Origin: Terriglobia bacterium | GTDB lineage: Bacteria; Acidobacteriota; UBA6911 | Direction: 5' to 3' | NCBI GenBank assembly: GCA_020072565.1 | Contig: JAIQGI010000018.1 | Span: forward strand, 1 to 64,000 | Length of the DNA stretch: 64,000 bases | Part shown: one piece after another, positions 25,487-60,276 of the stretch | Numbering within the stretch: position 1 is the first letter of the stretch | Layout: every line of letters begins with the position of its first letter | Notes under the pieces: generated by a model | Told to the model about the DNA's origin: nothing | The model's database searches: none | What the model saw: only the letters and a program-made list of their open reading frames with translations | Program-made: the position numbers and the translations under genes

Positions 25487-25591
25487 CAAAAGCTCCTGCA
25501 CGCCGACCAAGACCGAACGGTCGTCGCCGGTCAGCGTTTTTCCGCCTCCCAAAGTTTCTTTTGTTCGCATATTCATGAGTAATCCGGGCTA
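25487..25591 (-). repeat. Dispersed repeat, inverted copy of the one at 41788-41897
   Basis: On the minus strand it reads from CTAGCCCGGATTACTCATGA through ATATGCGAACAAAAGAAACT to GCGGAAAAACGCTGACC and on to GACCGAACGGTC-type dyads, ending AGGAGCTTTTG. The copy at 41788 reads the same order on the plus strand with scattered differences. Both lie in intergenic DNA. Confidence 0.6.
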
Positions 25592-28954: not shown

Positions 28955-29413
28955 TGCTCCTCCTTTGGATAAAGAAATCAAGCCTTATTCTTCTTTTCAA
29001 AGCAGCCCCCCATGCGCCGTGGCGCACCCTGTGACGCATGAAAAGCTCATGTTATCCGGTTTGTGATCGTCGGTATCGGGATCGCAATCGCTATCGGAAC
29101 TCTTAGCCGGCAAAAGCCGATAGCGACCGCGATAGCGATTGCGATCCCGATACCGGTTGTCTATTTTCAGAACAGCGAAACCAGATTATATCCGTGCTCG
29201 CTCTTCGGCAGATATAAAATTCGCACTGCAGGCCGTATTAGATCTTTATTAGCTTTGGCCTTCTCGTCACGGGCATGACGCCGCACTCCGGGAACCTCTC
29301 ACTGAAATCGCTGCCGTTGTCCATACTATGGTTGTGTCGCGGTATTTCGTCGGCTATCATTTCTGAAAGCCGCGACAGGAAGAGTGCCTGGTCGGCTTCT
29401 GAGGAGTCTGATC
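28955..29413. other. Intergenic stretch containing the first long palindromic repeat
   Basis: About 460 bases between the divergent VPS10-like and permease genes. It holds the repeat at 29009-29173 and AT-rich sequence (TATAAAATTCGC near 29212) that could carry promoter elements for either side. No coding frame with start signals. Confidence 0.4.
29009..29173 (+). repeat. Long palindromic repeat, copy 1 (core inverted)
   Basis: The left flank reads CCATGCGCCGTGGCGCACCC, then GCATGAAAAGCTCATGTTAT; the right flank is GTCTATTTTCAGAAC. In between two arms built of degenerate TCGNNA hexamers (29070-29097 and 29117-29154) face each other around the centre CTTAGCCGGCAAAAGCCG. Related copies lie at 38537-38687 (minus) and 53243-53410 (plus). 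Relative to the flanks the centre of this copy is inverted compared with the other two. Folding would give a stem of more than 25 base pairs. Confidence 0.75.
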
Positions 29414-36232: not shown

Positions 36233-37066
36233 GGGATTTTCCTGTACATGGACAGTTCCTGGAATCTAAAAACAAGCAGGAGCCGGGAATTCATGCTTTG
36301 CATCGCCGTACTTGTATCCTTCATCGGTTGTCGCTCCCGGCCCCCTGGACCTAAGACTGCGGTGCCTCCGGAAACTGGACACTCGCCTGATAATATTGGA
36401 GAAGACGCCTGTGAATCGAGTCACAAGTTGCATGAGATGACCGGAAAGCGATCCTGGCGCATGAGAGGAGGTTCCTAAAACCACGCCTCAAAAGACGGAA
36501 AGCGGCTCCGAATGTCCCGGTGCGGAATATCCGCAATCTAAACCCTCAACGCACAGGGCGCAGAGGCCGCAGCGGATTTCCGCCTCCGCATGACTTTTCT
36601 CCGCGATCTCTGCGACCTCTGCGCTGATCTTTTATTTTTCTTGCCTAAACAGCAAGGATCTGTAAGTAAGCAGTACGAATGGCGCATTGGCGAAATTGTG
36701 CCACTCGTGGCTGCTTCGTCAATAACCTGGGAAGCCGCAGTCCAGCACTAACTCAACCACGAACGTCCCACGAAGACAACCCGATGGGCGCGCTATTGTG
36801 GCGTCCGTCGCTTTTGTGATATGAAGCTTTACCCATGCATTCTATGCCACGGGGCATCCGGCATCGGCCATCGATTCTTGCCTGCTTGAAGGGAGGCGAG
36901 CGGGCGACGATCCGCAAAATGCCCGGGACAGATTGACACAAGGAGTCATTAAACCTGAAGTGCGTGGCACGGCATCGCCGCGAGCCCAAAGACCTCAACG
37001 CAGGGAACCCGGAGACCACGGAGAAAGGCAGAGGATTCTCGTGGCAGCTGAACAGGTGTAACAGAA
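36233..37066. other. Long intergenic region with repeats
   Basis: About 830 bases without a convincing gene. It contains the dispersed repeat at 36519-36668, a stretch reading AACCACGAACGTCCCACGAAG (36755) of the CACGAA type, and another generic repeat around 36985-37040 (CCTCAACGCAGGGAACCCGG). A small frame from 36248 to 36478 with a lipobox-like FIGC is discussed under rejected items. Confidence 0.5.
36519..36668 (+). repeat. Dispersed 145-base repeat, copy 1
   Basis: Runs from CGGTGCGGAATATCCGCA through GCATGACTTTTCTCCGCG to TTTTTCTTGCCTAAAC and CAAGGATCTGTAAGTAAG. The same order occurs in reverse orientation at 60098-60237 with substitutions and small length changes. Both copies are intergenic. 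The starting TGCGGAATATCCGCA is itself a perfect palindrome. Confidence 0.65.
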
Positions 37067-38524
37067 TTGTCCAAATCGGCCGGAACTACTGAGGGCACAG
37101 AATTCATCAAGGCGCTGGGGCTGCGTGATGTCGCCGCCATGACGCTCGTGGGAGTGGTGTCGCTCCGATGGATTTCGCGCGCCGCACGCATGGGAGCGCC
37201 GTCGGTGACGCTCTGGTTTTTTGCGTGGATCTCGTTTTTTTTGCCGCTTGCTGCGGCCGTCTGCGAGTTGTCGAGCCGCTATCCGGAGCAGGGCGGGCTC
37301 TACGCCTGGGCGCGGCGCGCGTTCGGCCCGGCACACGGATTCGTCTGCGGCTGGTGCCTGTGGGTCAATAACCTCTTCTGGTATCCCTCGCTCCTGCTGT
37401 TTGCAGCTGCTAATGCGCTGCTTGTCTTTGGAGGGAGCCTTTCCTGGCTGGCCGACTCGCGCCTCTACTCGGTTGCCTTCGTCATAGTCATGCTCTGGTT
37501 TTCGGTCGGCCTGAATATTCTAGGACTGTCGAGGTCGAAATGGCTCCAGAACATCGGCAGCATCGGCATCTGGCTGCCCGCCGGCCTGCTCATTATTTTC
37601 GGAGCGATTGCCTTTACATGGTTTGGATCCGCGACTTCCTTCGCGCCACGCGAACTTCTGCCGAGACACGACATATTGACCACGATCAGCTTGTGGTCGG
37701 CGATCTGCTTCGCTTTTTCCGGTCTCGAGTTGACCTCTCTTGTGGGGCAGGAGGTGAAGAATCCGAAACGGAACCTGCCGCGCGGCGTGATGATCGCCGG
37801 ACTGGCTGCGACGCTCATCTATGTGGCAGGTTCGGTGTCGGTGCTTGTGGCAGTGCCGTCGAAGGCGCTGCTGGAACGAAGCGGTATCGCGGATGCCATC
37901 GAACTGGCATCCGGACGGATCGGGCTGGGAGGATTTGGCCCGCTGACCGGGGCTCTGCTGGCACTGGGAGCCGTTGCCATGAACAACTCGTGGTTTGCCG
38001 GGGCGGCACGCGTACCGTTCGCGGCGGGAGTCGACCGGGCGCTTCCGGCTGTGTTCGCGCGGATTCACCCCCGGTATCGCACGCCCCATGTAGTGCTCGT
38101 CTTCCAGGGTCTTGCCGCTTCGCTGATTTTCCTGGTCAGCCTGTTCTTCACCGTGGGCGGCGCCCGGACGTCGATCCAGGAAGCATACGACATCATGGTA
38201 AACCTGACGATTCTGATTTACTTTCTCCCCTATCTCTATCTTTTCATTTCACTGGTGCGGTTGCGTGCGCGGGATTCCAGGGAAAATAATGCGGCACAGT
38301 ATCGCGTGCCCGGCGGGCGGGTGGGATTATGGTTTGTCGCCGGTGCCGGCGGCATCGCGACCGCCGTCTCCCTCGGTCTTGTGTTTGTTCCACCCCCGGG
38401 AACGGGGAATGTGCTGAACTACGAGACCAACCTCATCGGCCAGGCTCTGATCATACTTGCCATTGGCTTCATACTGTACCGCAGGAAATCTTCGATACCG
38501 GCGGCGCAGGGTAGAATCCCCTGA
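37067..38524 (+). CDS. Amino acid permease (APC superfamily)
   Basis: A 485-residue permease with about 12-13 transmembrane helices. It begins with FIKALGLRDVAAMTLVGVVSLRW and contains CELSSRYPEQGGLYAWARRAFGP, the family motif around helix 2/3, then AICFAFSGLELTSLVGQEVKNPKRNLPRG, the conserved segment after helix 6. These place it with amino-acid or polyamine permeases. The start is TTG 37067, since no ATG lies before the first conserved segment; there is little ribosome-binding sequence and the start is uncertain. The gene converges on the corrinoid-protein and MttB-type methyltransferase genes, making an N-methylated amino acid a plausible substrate (inference). Confidence 0.85.
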   Translation: MSKSAGTTEGTEFIKALGLRDVAAMTLVGVVSLRWISRAARMGAPSVTLWFFAWISFFLPLAAAVCELSSRYPEQGGLYAWARRAFGPAHGFVCGWCLWVNNLFWYPSLLLFAAANALLVFGGSLSWLADSRLYSVAFVIVMLWFSVGLNILGLSRSKWLQNIGSIGIWLPAGLLIIFGAIAFTWFGSATSFAPRELLPRHDILTTISLWSAICFAFSGLELTSLVGQEVKNPKRNLPRGVMIAGLAATLIYVAGSVSVLVAVPSKALLERSGIADAIELASGRIGLGGFGPLTGALLALGAVAMNNSWFAGAARVPFAAGVDRALPAVFARIHPRYRTPHVVLVFQGLAASLIFLVSLFFTVGGARTSIQEAYDIMVNLTILIYFLPYLYLFISLVRLRARDSRENNAAQYRVPGGRVGLWFVAGAGGIATAVSLGLVFVPPPGTGNVLNYETNLIGQALIILAIGFILYRRKSSIPAAQGRIP

Positions 38525-38536
38525 TGCCTCAGCGCC

Positions 38537-38687
38537 CTGCTTCGAAAATAGACAAATCGGCATCGGAATCGGGATCGCTATCGCAATCGGAACTCTTGGC
38601 CGGCAAAAGCCGATAGCGATACCGATACCGACGTTCGCCAACGATAGATGAACGAGTTTTTCATGCGTGTGGGTGCGCCCCGGCACA
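38537..38687 (-). repeat. Long palindromic repeat, copy 2
   Basis: On the minus strand it has the same flanks as the copy at 53243: GCGCACCC and GCATGAAAA on the left, GTCTATTTTCGAAGCAGG on the right. TCGNNA-hexamer arms enclose the centre CGGCTTTTGCCGGCCAAGAG in the same orientation as copy 3 and opposite to copy 1. It lies between the convergent APC permease and corrinoid-protein genes. Confidence 0.7.
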
Positions 38688-38712
38688 CGAACACTTCCCC
38701 TGCGTTGAAGCT

Positions 38713-39360: not shown

Positions 39361-39404
39361 AACCAGGCTCCTTGGAGTGCGGCAGCTTGCTGCCGCTTGA
39401 TGTT

Positions 39405-41787: not shown

Positions 41788-41897
41788 CGCTTAGCACGGA
41801 TCATTCATGAATATGTGATCAAAAGAAATTTTCGGACGCGGAAAAACGCCGACAGACGCTGACCGTTCGGTCCTGGTCGGCGTGCAAAAGCTCCTGC
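41788..41897 (+). repeat. Dispersed repeat, copy on plus strand
   Basis: Begins GCTTAGCACGGATCATTCAT, GAATATG, continues CAAAAGAAATTTTCGG and GCGGAAAAACGC, then GACCGTTCGGTC and ends near AAAAGCTCCTGC. The same order is found inverted at 25487-25591. The right-hand neighbourhood (41955-41972) reads CACGGATAATTCGGGTTAG, whose complement resembles the left end, so the full element may extend to about 41972 with imperfect terminal inverted repeats, as in a MITE. Confidence 0.55.
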
Positions 41898-53172: not shown

Positions 53173-53242
53173 GGGATGGGATGATAGCATATGCGGCTCG
53201 TGCCCGCGACCCGGCAGAAACCCGGGGATACCCGGAACAGTT

Positions 53243-53410
53243 CCCCATGCGCCGTGGCGCACCCTGCGATGCATGAAAAGCTCATGTTATCCGGTTGGTG
53301 AACATCGGTATCGCAATCGCTATGGAGGTCGCTATCGGCTTTTGCCGGCTAAGAGTTCCGATTGCGATGGTGATAGCGATTGCGATACCGATTCGTCTAT
53401 TTTCGGAGCA
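53243..53410 (+). repeat. Long palindromic repeat, copy 3
   Basis: Left flank CCCCATGCGCCGTGGCGCAC and ATGCATGAAAAGCTCATG, right flank GTCTATTTTCGGAGCAG. TCGNNA-hexamer arms surround the centre GGCTTTTGCCGGCTAAGAGT, oriented as in copy 2 and opposite to copy 1. It lies between glnS (divergent) and the GH31 gene. The whole stretch 53173-53556 (384 bases) contains only this repeat, a TTCGTGG fragment near 53447 and the GH31 leader. Confidence 0.72.
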
Positions 53411-53556
53411 GAAGGAACGAGCTCATGTGTGGGGTTGGGCGAATTTCGTGGTTTTGGATTTTTCTGCTTGCGCCCCGGGCACTCCCAAGATAGAAATAGC
53501 TCACGCTGACTTTCATTCTCATAAACCCGCAAACCCGGCCAAGGAGTACTTAGAAG

Positions 53557-55908
53557 ATGAATCATAGAAGATTTCTTGTGATCGGCTCGATTTTTATAGG
53601 TCTTCAATTGTCGTGGGCGCAGTCCTCCCAGGAGTCCGGGCAGGGACAGACGGCGCCGCTGCCGGGCCAGCTGGGCGCGGGCGCGCGCCAGGCGCAACCG
53701 CGCGGGAGAAGCATCACGCTCGGAGACGTCACGAACTTTGAAGCCAAGGACAACTTTTTCAATATCGCCGCCGGTTCGGACCAGGTCCGGGTAATCTTCT
53801 ACCGCGACGACATTTTCAGGATCCGGGTGGGGCCGGACGGCACTTTTACCGAAGCGCAGCCGGCGCCGGAAGATGCGCAGATCGTCGTTTATAAAGGACC
53901 CGCGGTGCCGGTGCCGTGGAGGGATGCCGGCGAGTACTACAGGCTGGAGAGCAGGCAGTGCGTGCTGCGTGTTTATAAGAGGCCTTTGAAGTTCGCCCTC
54001 TTCGACCAAGACAATTCAACCGTCATCTGGCAGGAGACCCGCCCGCTGACCTATGGGCCTTCGACCGTCCAAACCCTGAGGCGCGGAGAAAGCGAGAACT
54101 TCTATGGCGGCGGCATGCAGAACGGTTACTTTTCCCACCGGGACACGTCCGTCAACATCCGGCTCAATACCCGCGGCTGGGGCGACGGCACGACCCCGAA
54201 CCCGGCGCCTTTTTACATGAGCACGGCGGGCTACGGCGCTTTCCGCAACACCATGACGCCGGGCAGATATGATTTTCTCTCGCCCCTGAGCCTGTCACAC
54301 GATGAGCCGCGGTTCGATTGCTACTATTTCTATGGACCGTCGCTCAAGAAAATTCTCGACGGTTACACGCTCATCACCGGCCGCCCGTTTTTCCCACCGC
54401 GCTGGGGGCTCGAGTTCGGTGACGCCGACTGTTACAACAAAAAGGGGAAGACGCCGGATGTCATCTCGAAGGTCGCGGACGTCTATCGCGCAAACGACAT
54501 GCCGGGAGGCTGGATCCTGCCCAACGACGGTTACGGCTGCGGCTACGTCGAGCTCGACACCACGATCCAGGAGCTCCACAAGCGCGGGTTCTACACCGGG
54601 CTCTGGACTGAAAAGGGGCTTGATCGCGTCGCCAATGAAGTAGGCGCGCTCGGCTCGCGGGTCATGAAGCTCGACGTGGCGTGGGTCGGGCGTGGGTACC
54701 AGTTCGCCCTCAACGGCATGCGCGATGCTTATGAAGGCATCGAAAAGAACGCCGATGCACGCGGCTTCGTTTGGACAACCTGTGCCTGGTCAGGCGCTCA
54801 GCGCTATGCCACGATCTGGTCGGGCGACCAATCCGGCAACTGGGAATACATCCGCTTCCACATCCCTACCGTGCTCGGCGCGGGCCTGTCGGGATTCAAC
54901 GCGGCGACGGGCGACGTGGACGGGATCTTCGGCGGCAGCGCGCAGACCCAGGTCCGTGACCTGCAGTGGAAGTGCTTTACCCCGGTCCTGATGATCATCA
55001 GCGGCTGGTCGAAGCAAACCAACCTCATGAAACAGCCCTGGATCTTCGGTGAGCCCTACACAACCGCCAACCGCAAATACCTGAAACTCAAGATGCGGCT
55101 CACGCCCTACATCTATACTTACACCCGCGAAGCCCATGATACCGGAGTGCCGGCCGTGCGTGCGATGGTCCTCGAGTTCCCTGACGATCCGGTGACCTGG
55201 TCAAAGCGGACACAATATCAGCTCATGAGCGGCGAATGGCTCCTGGTCGCGCCCGTCTATGAAGACACCATCGTCCGGAACGACATCTATCTGCCCGCGG
55301 GGAAATGGATTGATTATTGGGACGGCACCGAATTCAACGGTCCGGTCGTTCTGAACGGTTATGCCGCGCCTCTCGATAAGCTGCCGCTGTTTGTCAAGGC
55401 CGGGGCGATCATCCCCATGTATCCGGAGATGCTCCACGACCGCGAAAAAGCCAAAGATCCGGTGACGGTTGACGTCTATCCGTCCGGAAAGTCGAGTTTC
55501 AATCTCTACGAGGATGACGGCGCGACGCAGCAATATCGCAACGGAGCGTTTGCCCGAACGCTGATCGAGGTGGAGGCACCGAAATTTCTCGATGCCGCCG
55601 GCGCACAGGTCGCCGTCAAAGTGGGAGCTGCCAAGGGCCAATACAAGGACATGCCGGTGAGCCGCTCCTATGTTGTCGACGTCCACGTCCCGACAAAACC
55701 TGCGGGCGTGAAGCTCGGAGACAGGTCCCTCCCGGGTTTTGAAACCAATGCGGCGGACAGGGCATCCCGTGACAAGGTCAGAGCAGAATTTAACGCCGCC
55801 CCCGAAGGCTGGTTCTTCGACGCCGGAGACCGCCGCGGCGTGCTGCATATCAAAGTAAAGCCGCAACCCCTGACCGCCGGCTTTACGGTACGGGTCACGA
55901 TGCCGTAA
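53557..55908 (+). CDS. Exported glycoside hydrolase family 31 enzyme
   Basis: A 783-residue retaining glycosidase with a signal peptide (FLVIGSIFIGLQLSWAQ). The GH31 barrel shows FYGGGMQNGYFSHRD, PPRWGLEFGDADCYNKKGK, the nucleophile Asp373 in MKLDVAWVG and the acid/base Asp424 in WSGDQSGNWEYI. The C-terminal beta domains include YEDTIVRNDIYLPAGKWIDY, KLPLFVKAGAIIPMYPEM and LYEDDGATQQYRNG. The nucleophile region differs from classic WxDMNE, so it belongs to a divergent GH31 group; alpha-glucoside, xyloside, galactoside and GalNAc substrates are all possible. AAGGAG lies 13 bases before ATG 53557. An intrinsic hairpin follows its stop. Confidence 0.85.
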   Translation: MNHRRFLVIGSIFIGLQLSWAQSSQESGQGQTAPLPGQLGAGARQAQPRGRSITLGDVTNFEAKDNFFNIAAGSDQVRVIFYRDDIFRIRVGPDGTFTEAQPAPEDAQIVVYKGPAVPVPWRDAGEYYRLESRQCVLRVYKRPLKFALFDQDNSTVIWQETRPLTYGPSTVQTLRRGESENFYGGGMQNGYFSHRDTSVNIRLNTRGWGDGTTPNPAPFYMSTAGYGAFRNTMTPGRYDFLSPLSLSHDEPRFDCYYFYGPSLKKILDGYTLITGRPFFPPRWGLEFGDADCYNKKGKTPDVISKVADVYRANDMPGGWILPNDGYGCGYVELDTTIQELHKRGFYTGLWTEKGLDRVANEVGALGSRVMKLDVAWVGRGYQFALNGMRDAYEGIEKNADARGFVWTTCAWSGAQRYATIWSGDQSGNWEYIRFHIPTVLGAGLSGFNAATGDVDGIFGGSAQTQVRDLQWKCFTPVLMIISGWSKQTNLMKQPWIFGEPYTTANRKYLKLKMRLTPYIYTYTREAHDTGVPAVRAMVLEFPDDPVTWSKRTQYQLMSGEWLLVAPVYEDTIVRNDIYLPAGKWIDYWDGTEFNGPVVLNGYAAPLDKLPLFVKAGAIIPMYPEMLHDREKAKDPVTVDVYPSGKSSFNLYEDDGATQQYRNGAFARTLIEVEAPKFLDAAGAQVAVKVGAAKGQYKDMPVSRSYVVDVHVPTKPAGVKLGDRSLPGFETNAADRASRDKVRAEFNAAPEGWFFDAGDRRGVLHIKVKPQPLTAGFTVRVTMP

Positions 55909-60097: not shown

Positions 60098-60237
60098 CTT
60101 AGCTACAGATTCTTGCCATTCAGGCAAGAGAAGCAAAAAAAGATCAACGCAAAGGTCGCGGAGAAAAGTCATGCACACGCGAAAATACTCTGCGCCCCCC
60201 TGGGTTGAGGCTTTAGGCTGCGGATATTCCGCACCGT
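60098..60237 (-). repeat. Dispersed 145-base repeat, copy 2 (inverted)
   Basis: On the minus strand it runs from CGGTGCGGAATATCCGCA through GCATGACTTTTCTCCGCG, TTGATCTTTTTTTGCTTC and CTTGCC to AGAATCTGTAGCTAAG, matching the copy at 36519-36668 with point differences and short indels. The palindrome TGCGGAATATCCGCA is preserved in both. Confidence 0.65.
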
Positions 60238-60276
60238 GCATTTCGGGGTTGCCGGGGGAGAGGCGGCGCGCGGCCG

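Follow-up and report, generated by a model that had tools for sequence, protein, structure and literature searches.

How can the centre of an intergenic palindrome be reversed in one copy of a repeat and not in its relatives? The question arises at position 29009 of the window analysed here, a 64,000-nucleotide part of contig C18 in the 7.46-Mb, 135-contig assembly of an uncultured acidobacterium. The window contains three members of one intergenic family of about 170 bp, at 29009-29173, 38537-38687 (minus strand) and 53243-53410. A sequence-only reading had described three related elements at these places, with arms of degenerate TCGNNA hexamers and a centre reversed only in the first, and had supposed that recombination between the arms could flip that centre. 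All three elements are present, and their hexamer arms are as described. The family is probably a repeat in which two fixed ends surround an interchangeable interior, with arm-mediated flips occurring as rare incidents and not as a regulated switch; the arm-mediated route and the absence of regulation are, in our judgement, the best account of the data.

Architecture of the three window copies

The core GCCGGCHAAGAGTTCCGAT, with up to two mismatches, matches three times in the 64 kb (minus strand at 29093 and 38586, plus strand at 53344), with none expected from 100 shuffles of the window. Read in the frame of the flanks (left, ..GGCGCACCC..CGCATGAAAA..GGTTGGTGAACG; right, TTGTCTATTTTC..CAG), the loop is CTTTTGCCGGCYAAGAGTT in copies 2 and 3 and its reverse complement, AACTCTTAGCCGGCAAAAG, in copy 1. 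In this frame the centre is indeed reversed only in the first copy, and the reversed block is larger than the 18-nt core originally noted: it takes in the arm-specific hexamer GGTCGC as well as the loop, both of them inverted relative to the left and right flanks. The left-arm signature GGTCGC-TATCGG, which adjoins CTTTTG in most standard copies, lies on the right-hand side in copy 1, placing the breakpoints of the flip within the arms. The flipped block spans about 87 nt.

Copy 1 opens on the plus strand with GCAG at its left boundary (29002..29005), an RCAG motif that adjoins the left end in most copies. It continues through the left end H, a hairpin CATGCGCCGTGGCGCACCCTGTGACGCATGAAAA with one mismatch to the consensus (29011..29044), the class I linker GCTCATGTTATCCGGTTTGTGATCG (29045..29069) and a left hexamer arm (29070..29097) that corresponds to the standard right arm reversed and pairs perfectly with the right arm over 26 nt. 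The loop AACTCTTAGCCGGCAAAAG (29098..29116) lies on the minus strand, inverted relative to H and T. The right arm (29117..29156, plus strand) bears, in the form GCGACC, the GGTCGC signature found in the left arm of standard copies, and is followed by the right end T, TCTATTTTCAGAACAG (29160..29175, plus strand).

The other two copies have the standard orientation. Copy 2, of subfamily Ib (38537..38688, minus strand), comprises T (38537-38552), right arm (38556-38590), loop (38591-38609), left arm (38610-38631) and H (about 38658-38688). Copy 3, of subfamily Ia (53237..53411, plus strand), comprises ACAG (53237-53240), H (53246-53279), left arm (53305-53338), loop (53339-53357), right arm (53358-53392) and T (53396-53411). 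Folded as single-stranded DNA, the inner parts of copies 1 to 3 have z-scores of -9.2, -4.2 and -6.7 against shuffles, the first with a folding energy of -37.9 kcal/mol. Mechanical open reading frames run over the hexamer arms at 38327-38686 (minus strand) and 53295-53567 (plus strand) and yield repetitive peptides such as VGIGIAIGFC..IAIAIPIP; such frames are a likely source of false gene calls.

Orientation across the genome

A DNA search of the genome with copy 3 as query returned 68 aligned pieces, which were merged, and further stretches were fetched. Thirty-one class I copies, a search-based and perhaps incomplete count, still have a loop together with one or both flanks, by which they can be oriented. 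Each was aligned to the reference both ways, and the score difference was at least 15 for every copy. The sequence-only reading had proposed counting the two core orientations genome-wide; both occur, 28 standard and three inverted, the latter being the window copy at 29009 (L016), C6:130271 (L024) and C34:57393 (L153). The scorable copies sit at unrelated, mostly intergenic places.

That reading had also reasoned that orientation strictly following the phylogeny of the copies, with no population mixture, would indicate ancient rather than active inversion. In a tree of the left flanks (heads), whose support values are limited by their 60-nt length, L016 falls among standard-orientation copies of subfamily Ia with nearly identical heads. 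L024 and L153 both belong to subfamily Ib and are not mutual nearest relatives. Because the inverted copies are not each other's closest kin, the flips appear to have arisen repeatedly, and we read those of class I as probably two or three independent events. Repetition on different branches is one matter and active switching another; the latter is not supported, because 28 of 31 copies share one orientation and no fixed crossover site is seen. Inversion extends to a second interior family, class III, in which four of five scored loops are standard and one, at C1:12384-12517 (L268), is inverted. Hexamer-hairpin copies in G001 and G002 that could be oriented looked standard, by reading and not by alignment score.

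A single flip later spread between copies by recombination through the hexamer arms is improbable as a source of this pattern. Hybrid interiors, described below, make exchange between elements plausible, but the three flipped hairpins have arms of different length and are unlike in sequence, they are distributed over subfamilies Ia and Ib, and the class III flip would be left unexplained. It is still harder to credit an assembly artefact, in which the palindrome of this metagenome-derived genome would have been put together the wrong way round. Contigs of its relatives often end at such repeats, a sign that assemblers are troubled by them; however, the perfect arms measure just 26 nt and the flipped block about 87 nt, below ordinary read length, and the four flipped copies lie on four contigs, one of them in another interior family, each with private mutations.

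The placement of the three window copies between genes of different direction, which had been pointed out earlier, proves to be a coincidence of these three. Among 27 loci whose contexts were called with a home-made gene caller, 15 lie between co-directional genes, seven between divergent and three between convergent genes; one overlaps a weak predicted gene and one could not be scored. This bears on a programmed invertible switch, in which a site-specific recombinase would flip the hairpin and so alter expression of a neighbouring gene. Recurrence of flips in two interior families and the divergent genes beside two of the three window copies would suit such a device. The arms, however, vary in length and sequence and offer no constant crossover site, the gene contexts are mixed, and 28 of 31 copies keep a single orientation. 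A regulated switch is unlikely on the first three of these grounds, and with all of them weighed we regard the recombinase-driven form as very improbable.

Probable inversion through the arms

The reversed hairpins are most simply explained by inversion through their arms. The near-identical arms of the inverted repeat would allow the loop and inner arms to flip now and then, either by a polymerase switching template between the arms and rewriting the spacer in the opposite sense or, alternatively, by recombination between the arms that rejoins the spacer in that sense. In either case the flip would be a rare, incidental mutation of an individual copy. Two observations make this the best account: inverted copies recur, and arm pairing is at its best in the window copy. 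Its 26-nt perfect pairing is the longest among 29 copies. The other two inverted copies, with 11 nt (L153) and 10 nt (L024), do not have unusually good arms today. The earlier proposal that the arms flip the centre is partly supported, by the recurrence and the pairing; ongoing switching is not supported.

Template switching also causes recurrent homogenisation of arms, and this was looked for separately. Within a copy the two arms match each other no more closely than do arms drawn from separate copies (p 0.15-0.31). Recurrent homogenisation is therefore not seen, which counts against the arm-mediated route; one of six position-anchored variants of the test gave p 0.03, which we do not rely on. 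For short inverted repeats in yeast, spacer inversion by template switching is reported only where the arms exceeded 9 bp, mostly where they were already perfect (PMC8604942). In both cases a spacer lies between matching arms and is inverted where it stands, an event favoured by long arms. They differ in setting, the yeast work concerning genes with spacers of a few bases and the present case a repeat family with a 19-nt loop plus inner arms. The recurrent flips described here document, in nature, the frequency with which long quasi-palindromes undergo inversion on a bacterial chromosome.

Fixed ends and interchangeable interiors

The left end of the element consists of RCAG and the hairpin CATGCGCC..GGCGCACCC..CGCATGAAAA, and the right end of TCTATTTTCGRARCAG, with T finishing in RCAG. 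Searched alone, H has 24 genome matches against none in the reversed control, and T has 34 against one. These ends enclose interchangeable interiors, among them hexamer hairpins of several kinds as well as unrelated palindromes. The type present in the window, class I, is a long TCGNNA quasi-palindrome with an asymmetric 19-nt loop; class II reads TCGGGGCGATGTTGGGAGACATGAGG..GCGGGCGGCCCGACCGCGCCCGGC; class III is a hairpin of TCGTGR units with loop GGCAGTTTATGGATATCAAAAAAACC; and class IV is a hexamer hairpin with loop CTTTTCAGACTGTGAAG. Four further interiors are single cases. A clustering script recovered 36 complete H-T units in several interior classes and merged classes I, III and IV because of shared hexamers and two hybrids, one joining a class III linker to a class I hairpin (L152) and the other a class I linker to a class IV hairpin (L018/L258). 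These hybrids suggest exchange between hexamer hairpins. Each class has linkers and tails of its own.

Complete units also stack in tandem across a single shared RCAG junction, with class III followed by II at C3:16054-16340, I by III at C7:300418-300781 and II by I at C4:209873-210172. The same H/T ends surround other interiors in G001, of the same genus, and in G002 and G005, of the same family.

A different reading of the interiors would make the hexamer hairpin a mobile unit in its own right, able to enter the space between H and T, or other sites, in both orientations; the flips would then be insertions in the opposite sense. In favour of this, G001 and other phyla have hexamer hairpins whose flanks are quite unlike these, and the hybrids join the linker of one family to the hairpin of another. 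Yet 28 of 31 class I copies have one orientation, independent insertion would not preserve class-specific linkers and tails, and the sole insertion border seen is the arms themselves. We therefore consider this unlikely, though less so than the other alternatives, and retain inversion in place through the arms.

Small bacterial repeats are usually handled as single consensus sequences. One pair of ends, several palindromic interiors, tandem stacking and occurrence in related genera suggest instead that mobility belongs to the ends and that the interior can be swapped. More tentatively, the family may represent a cassette-like class of element, in which universal H/T ends, recognised at RCAG by some enzyme, carry, exchange and stack unrelated palindromes that also flip in place. 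It is conceivable, at a similarly modest level of confidence, that such a class is undescribed. The element's function, which the sequence-only reading had left as unknown, can be narrowed to that of a non-coding, dispersed, modular intergenic repeat of mobile-looking type, its apparent mobility resting on dispersal and shared ends.

Comparison with known repeats

In its behaviour the element recalls a modular MITE or the BOX repeats of pneumococcus, and of published designs BOX comes closest (PMC3049150). BOX elements of Streptococcus pneumoniae and S. suis are likewise short intergenic composite repeats with fixed end modules and a variable interior, and in S. suis two sets of ends share one interior module (PMC3049150). 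The likeness is one of design, drawn without sequence comparison to boxA, boxB or boxC, and both sequence and phylum differ. Moreover, the BOX interior varies mainly in boxB copy number, whereas here a single pair of ends encloses unrelated interiors that also flip.

The MITEs Correia/NEMIS, RUP and YPAL (PMC2229807) resemble the family in being shorter than 200 bp, non-coding, intergenic, dispersed and able to form strong hairpins; YPAL measures 168 bp, is not AT-rich and has internal inverted repeats (PMC2229807). As in MITEs, the copies found here are many, short, dispersed, non-coding and mostly intergenic. In contrast to MITEs, the family lacks terminal inverted repeats, the consensus left end RCAGYCYCTCATGCG and the reversed right end CTGYTYCGAAAATAGA being unlike. 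A matched target duplication and a parent insertion sequence were looked for and not seen. RCAG stands on both sides family-wide, and the bases preceding it differ from side to side within copies when compared by eye. The loci that were fetched, a non-exhaustive sample, show no coding element inside the H-T units.

In layout only, the RCAG motifs at the two ends agree with IS200/IS605 and REP/RAYT elements (TnpA Y1), including class 3 of Acidobacteria (PMC6006769), where guide bases beside hairpins recognise the left flanking motif and the final motif of the right end. These systems share with the family a subterminal hairpin, many copies, a short left motif that also ends the right side, and the lack of terminal inverted repeats, and the tandem stacking recalls them as well (PMC6006769). 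The foot of their class 3 is CnGA, in contrast to RCAG here. A Y1 transposase was considered as a partner, but none of the eight Y1 genes in the genome has H/T ends within about 1.5 kb, and no transposase with H/T ends was found; a distant Y1 gene acting in trans is possible.

The element matches no Rfam family of structured RNA, low-scoring miRNA matches lying far under thresholds, and has no match among viral contigs and plasmids. The exact linker pattern has no match in named genomes, a collection that excludes the source genome. Literature searches returned nothing on this repeat, and matches to hexamer strings look incidental by title. At the copy 2 locus, the genus-mate G001 conserves the corrinoid-protein gene, with a different gene next to it and no element, and so provides no clean empty site.

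Other repeats in the window and elsewhere

The window contains two more dispersed repeat families with inverted copies 80-84% alike, at 25491-25591 and 41792-41892, and at 36508-36614 and 60148-60246. Pieces of the second family (GCGGATATTCCGC..CTCTGCG) also lie on the flanks of L028 and make up the interior of an H-T unit at L141. Between two genes at 39367-39398 lies a 32-nt palindromic stretch, TTGGAGTGCGGCAGCTTGCTGCCGC, another palindromic repeat, matched at 97% in nine or more places of G004, a genome of the same bacterial family. At L144 (C88:12464), 2066-2370, a Y1-transposase gene is followed by copies of GGGCGCAGCCCTGGGACTGAACGCAAA at steps of about 68 nt, an array resembling the REP type. 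TCGNNA arrays are also present in Syntrophobacteraceae, Thermoanaerobaculales, Holophagales and Hydrogenedentota metagenome-assembled genomes, the same hexamer thus recurring across phyla. Seven loci (L165, L171, L178, L179, L181, L188 and L192, from Syntrophobacteraceae and Hydrogenedentota) are arrays of TCGNNR hexamers, mostly without an opposing arm.
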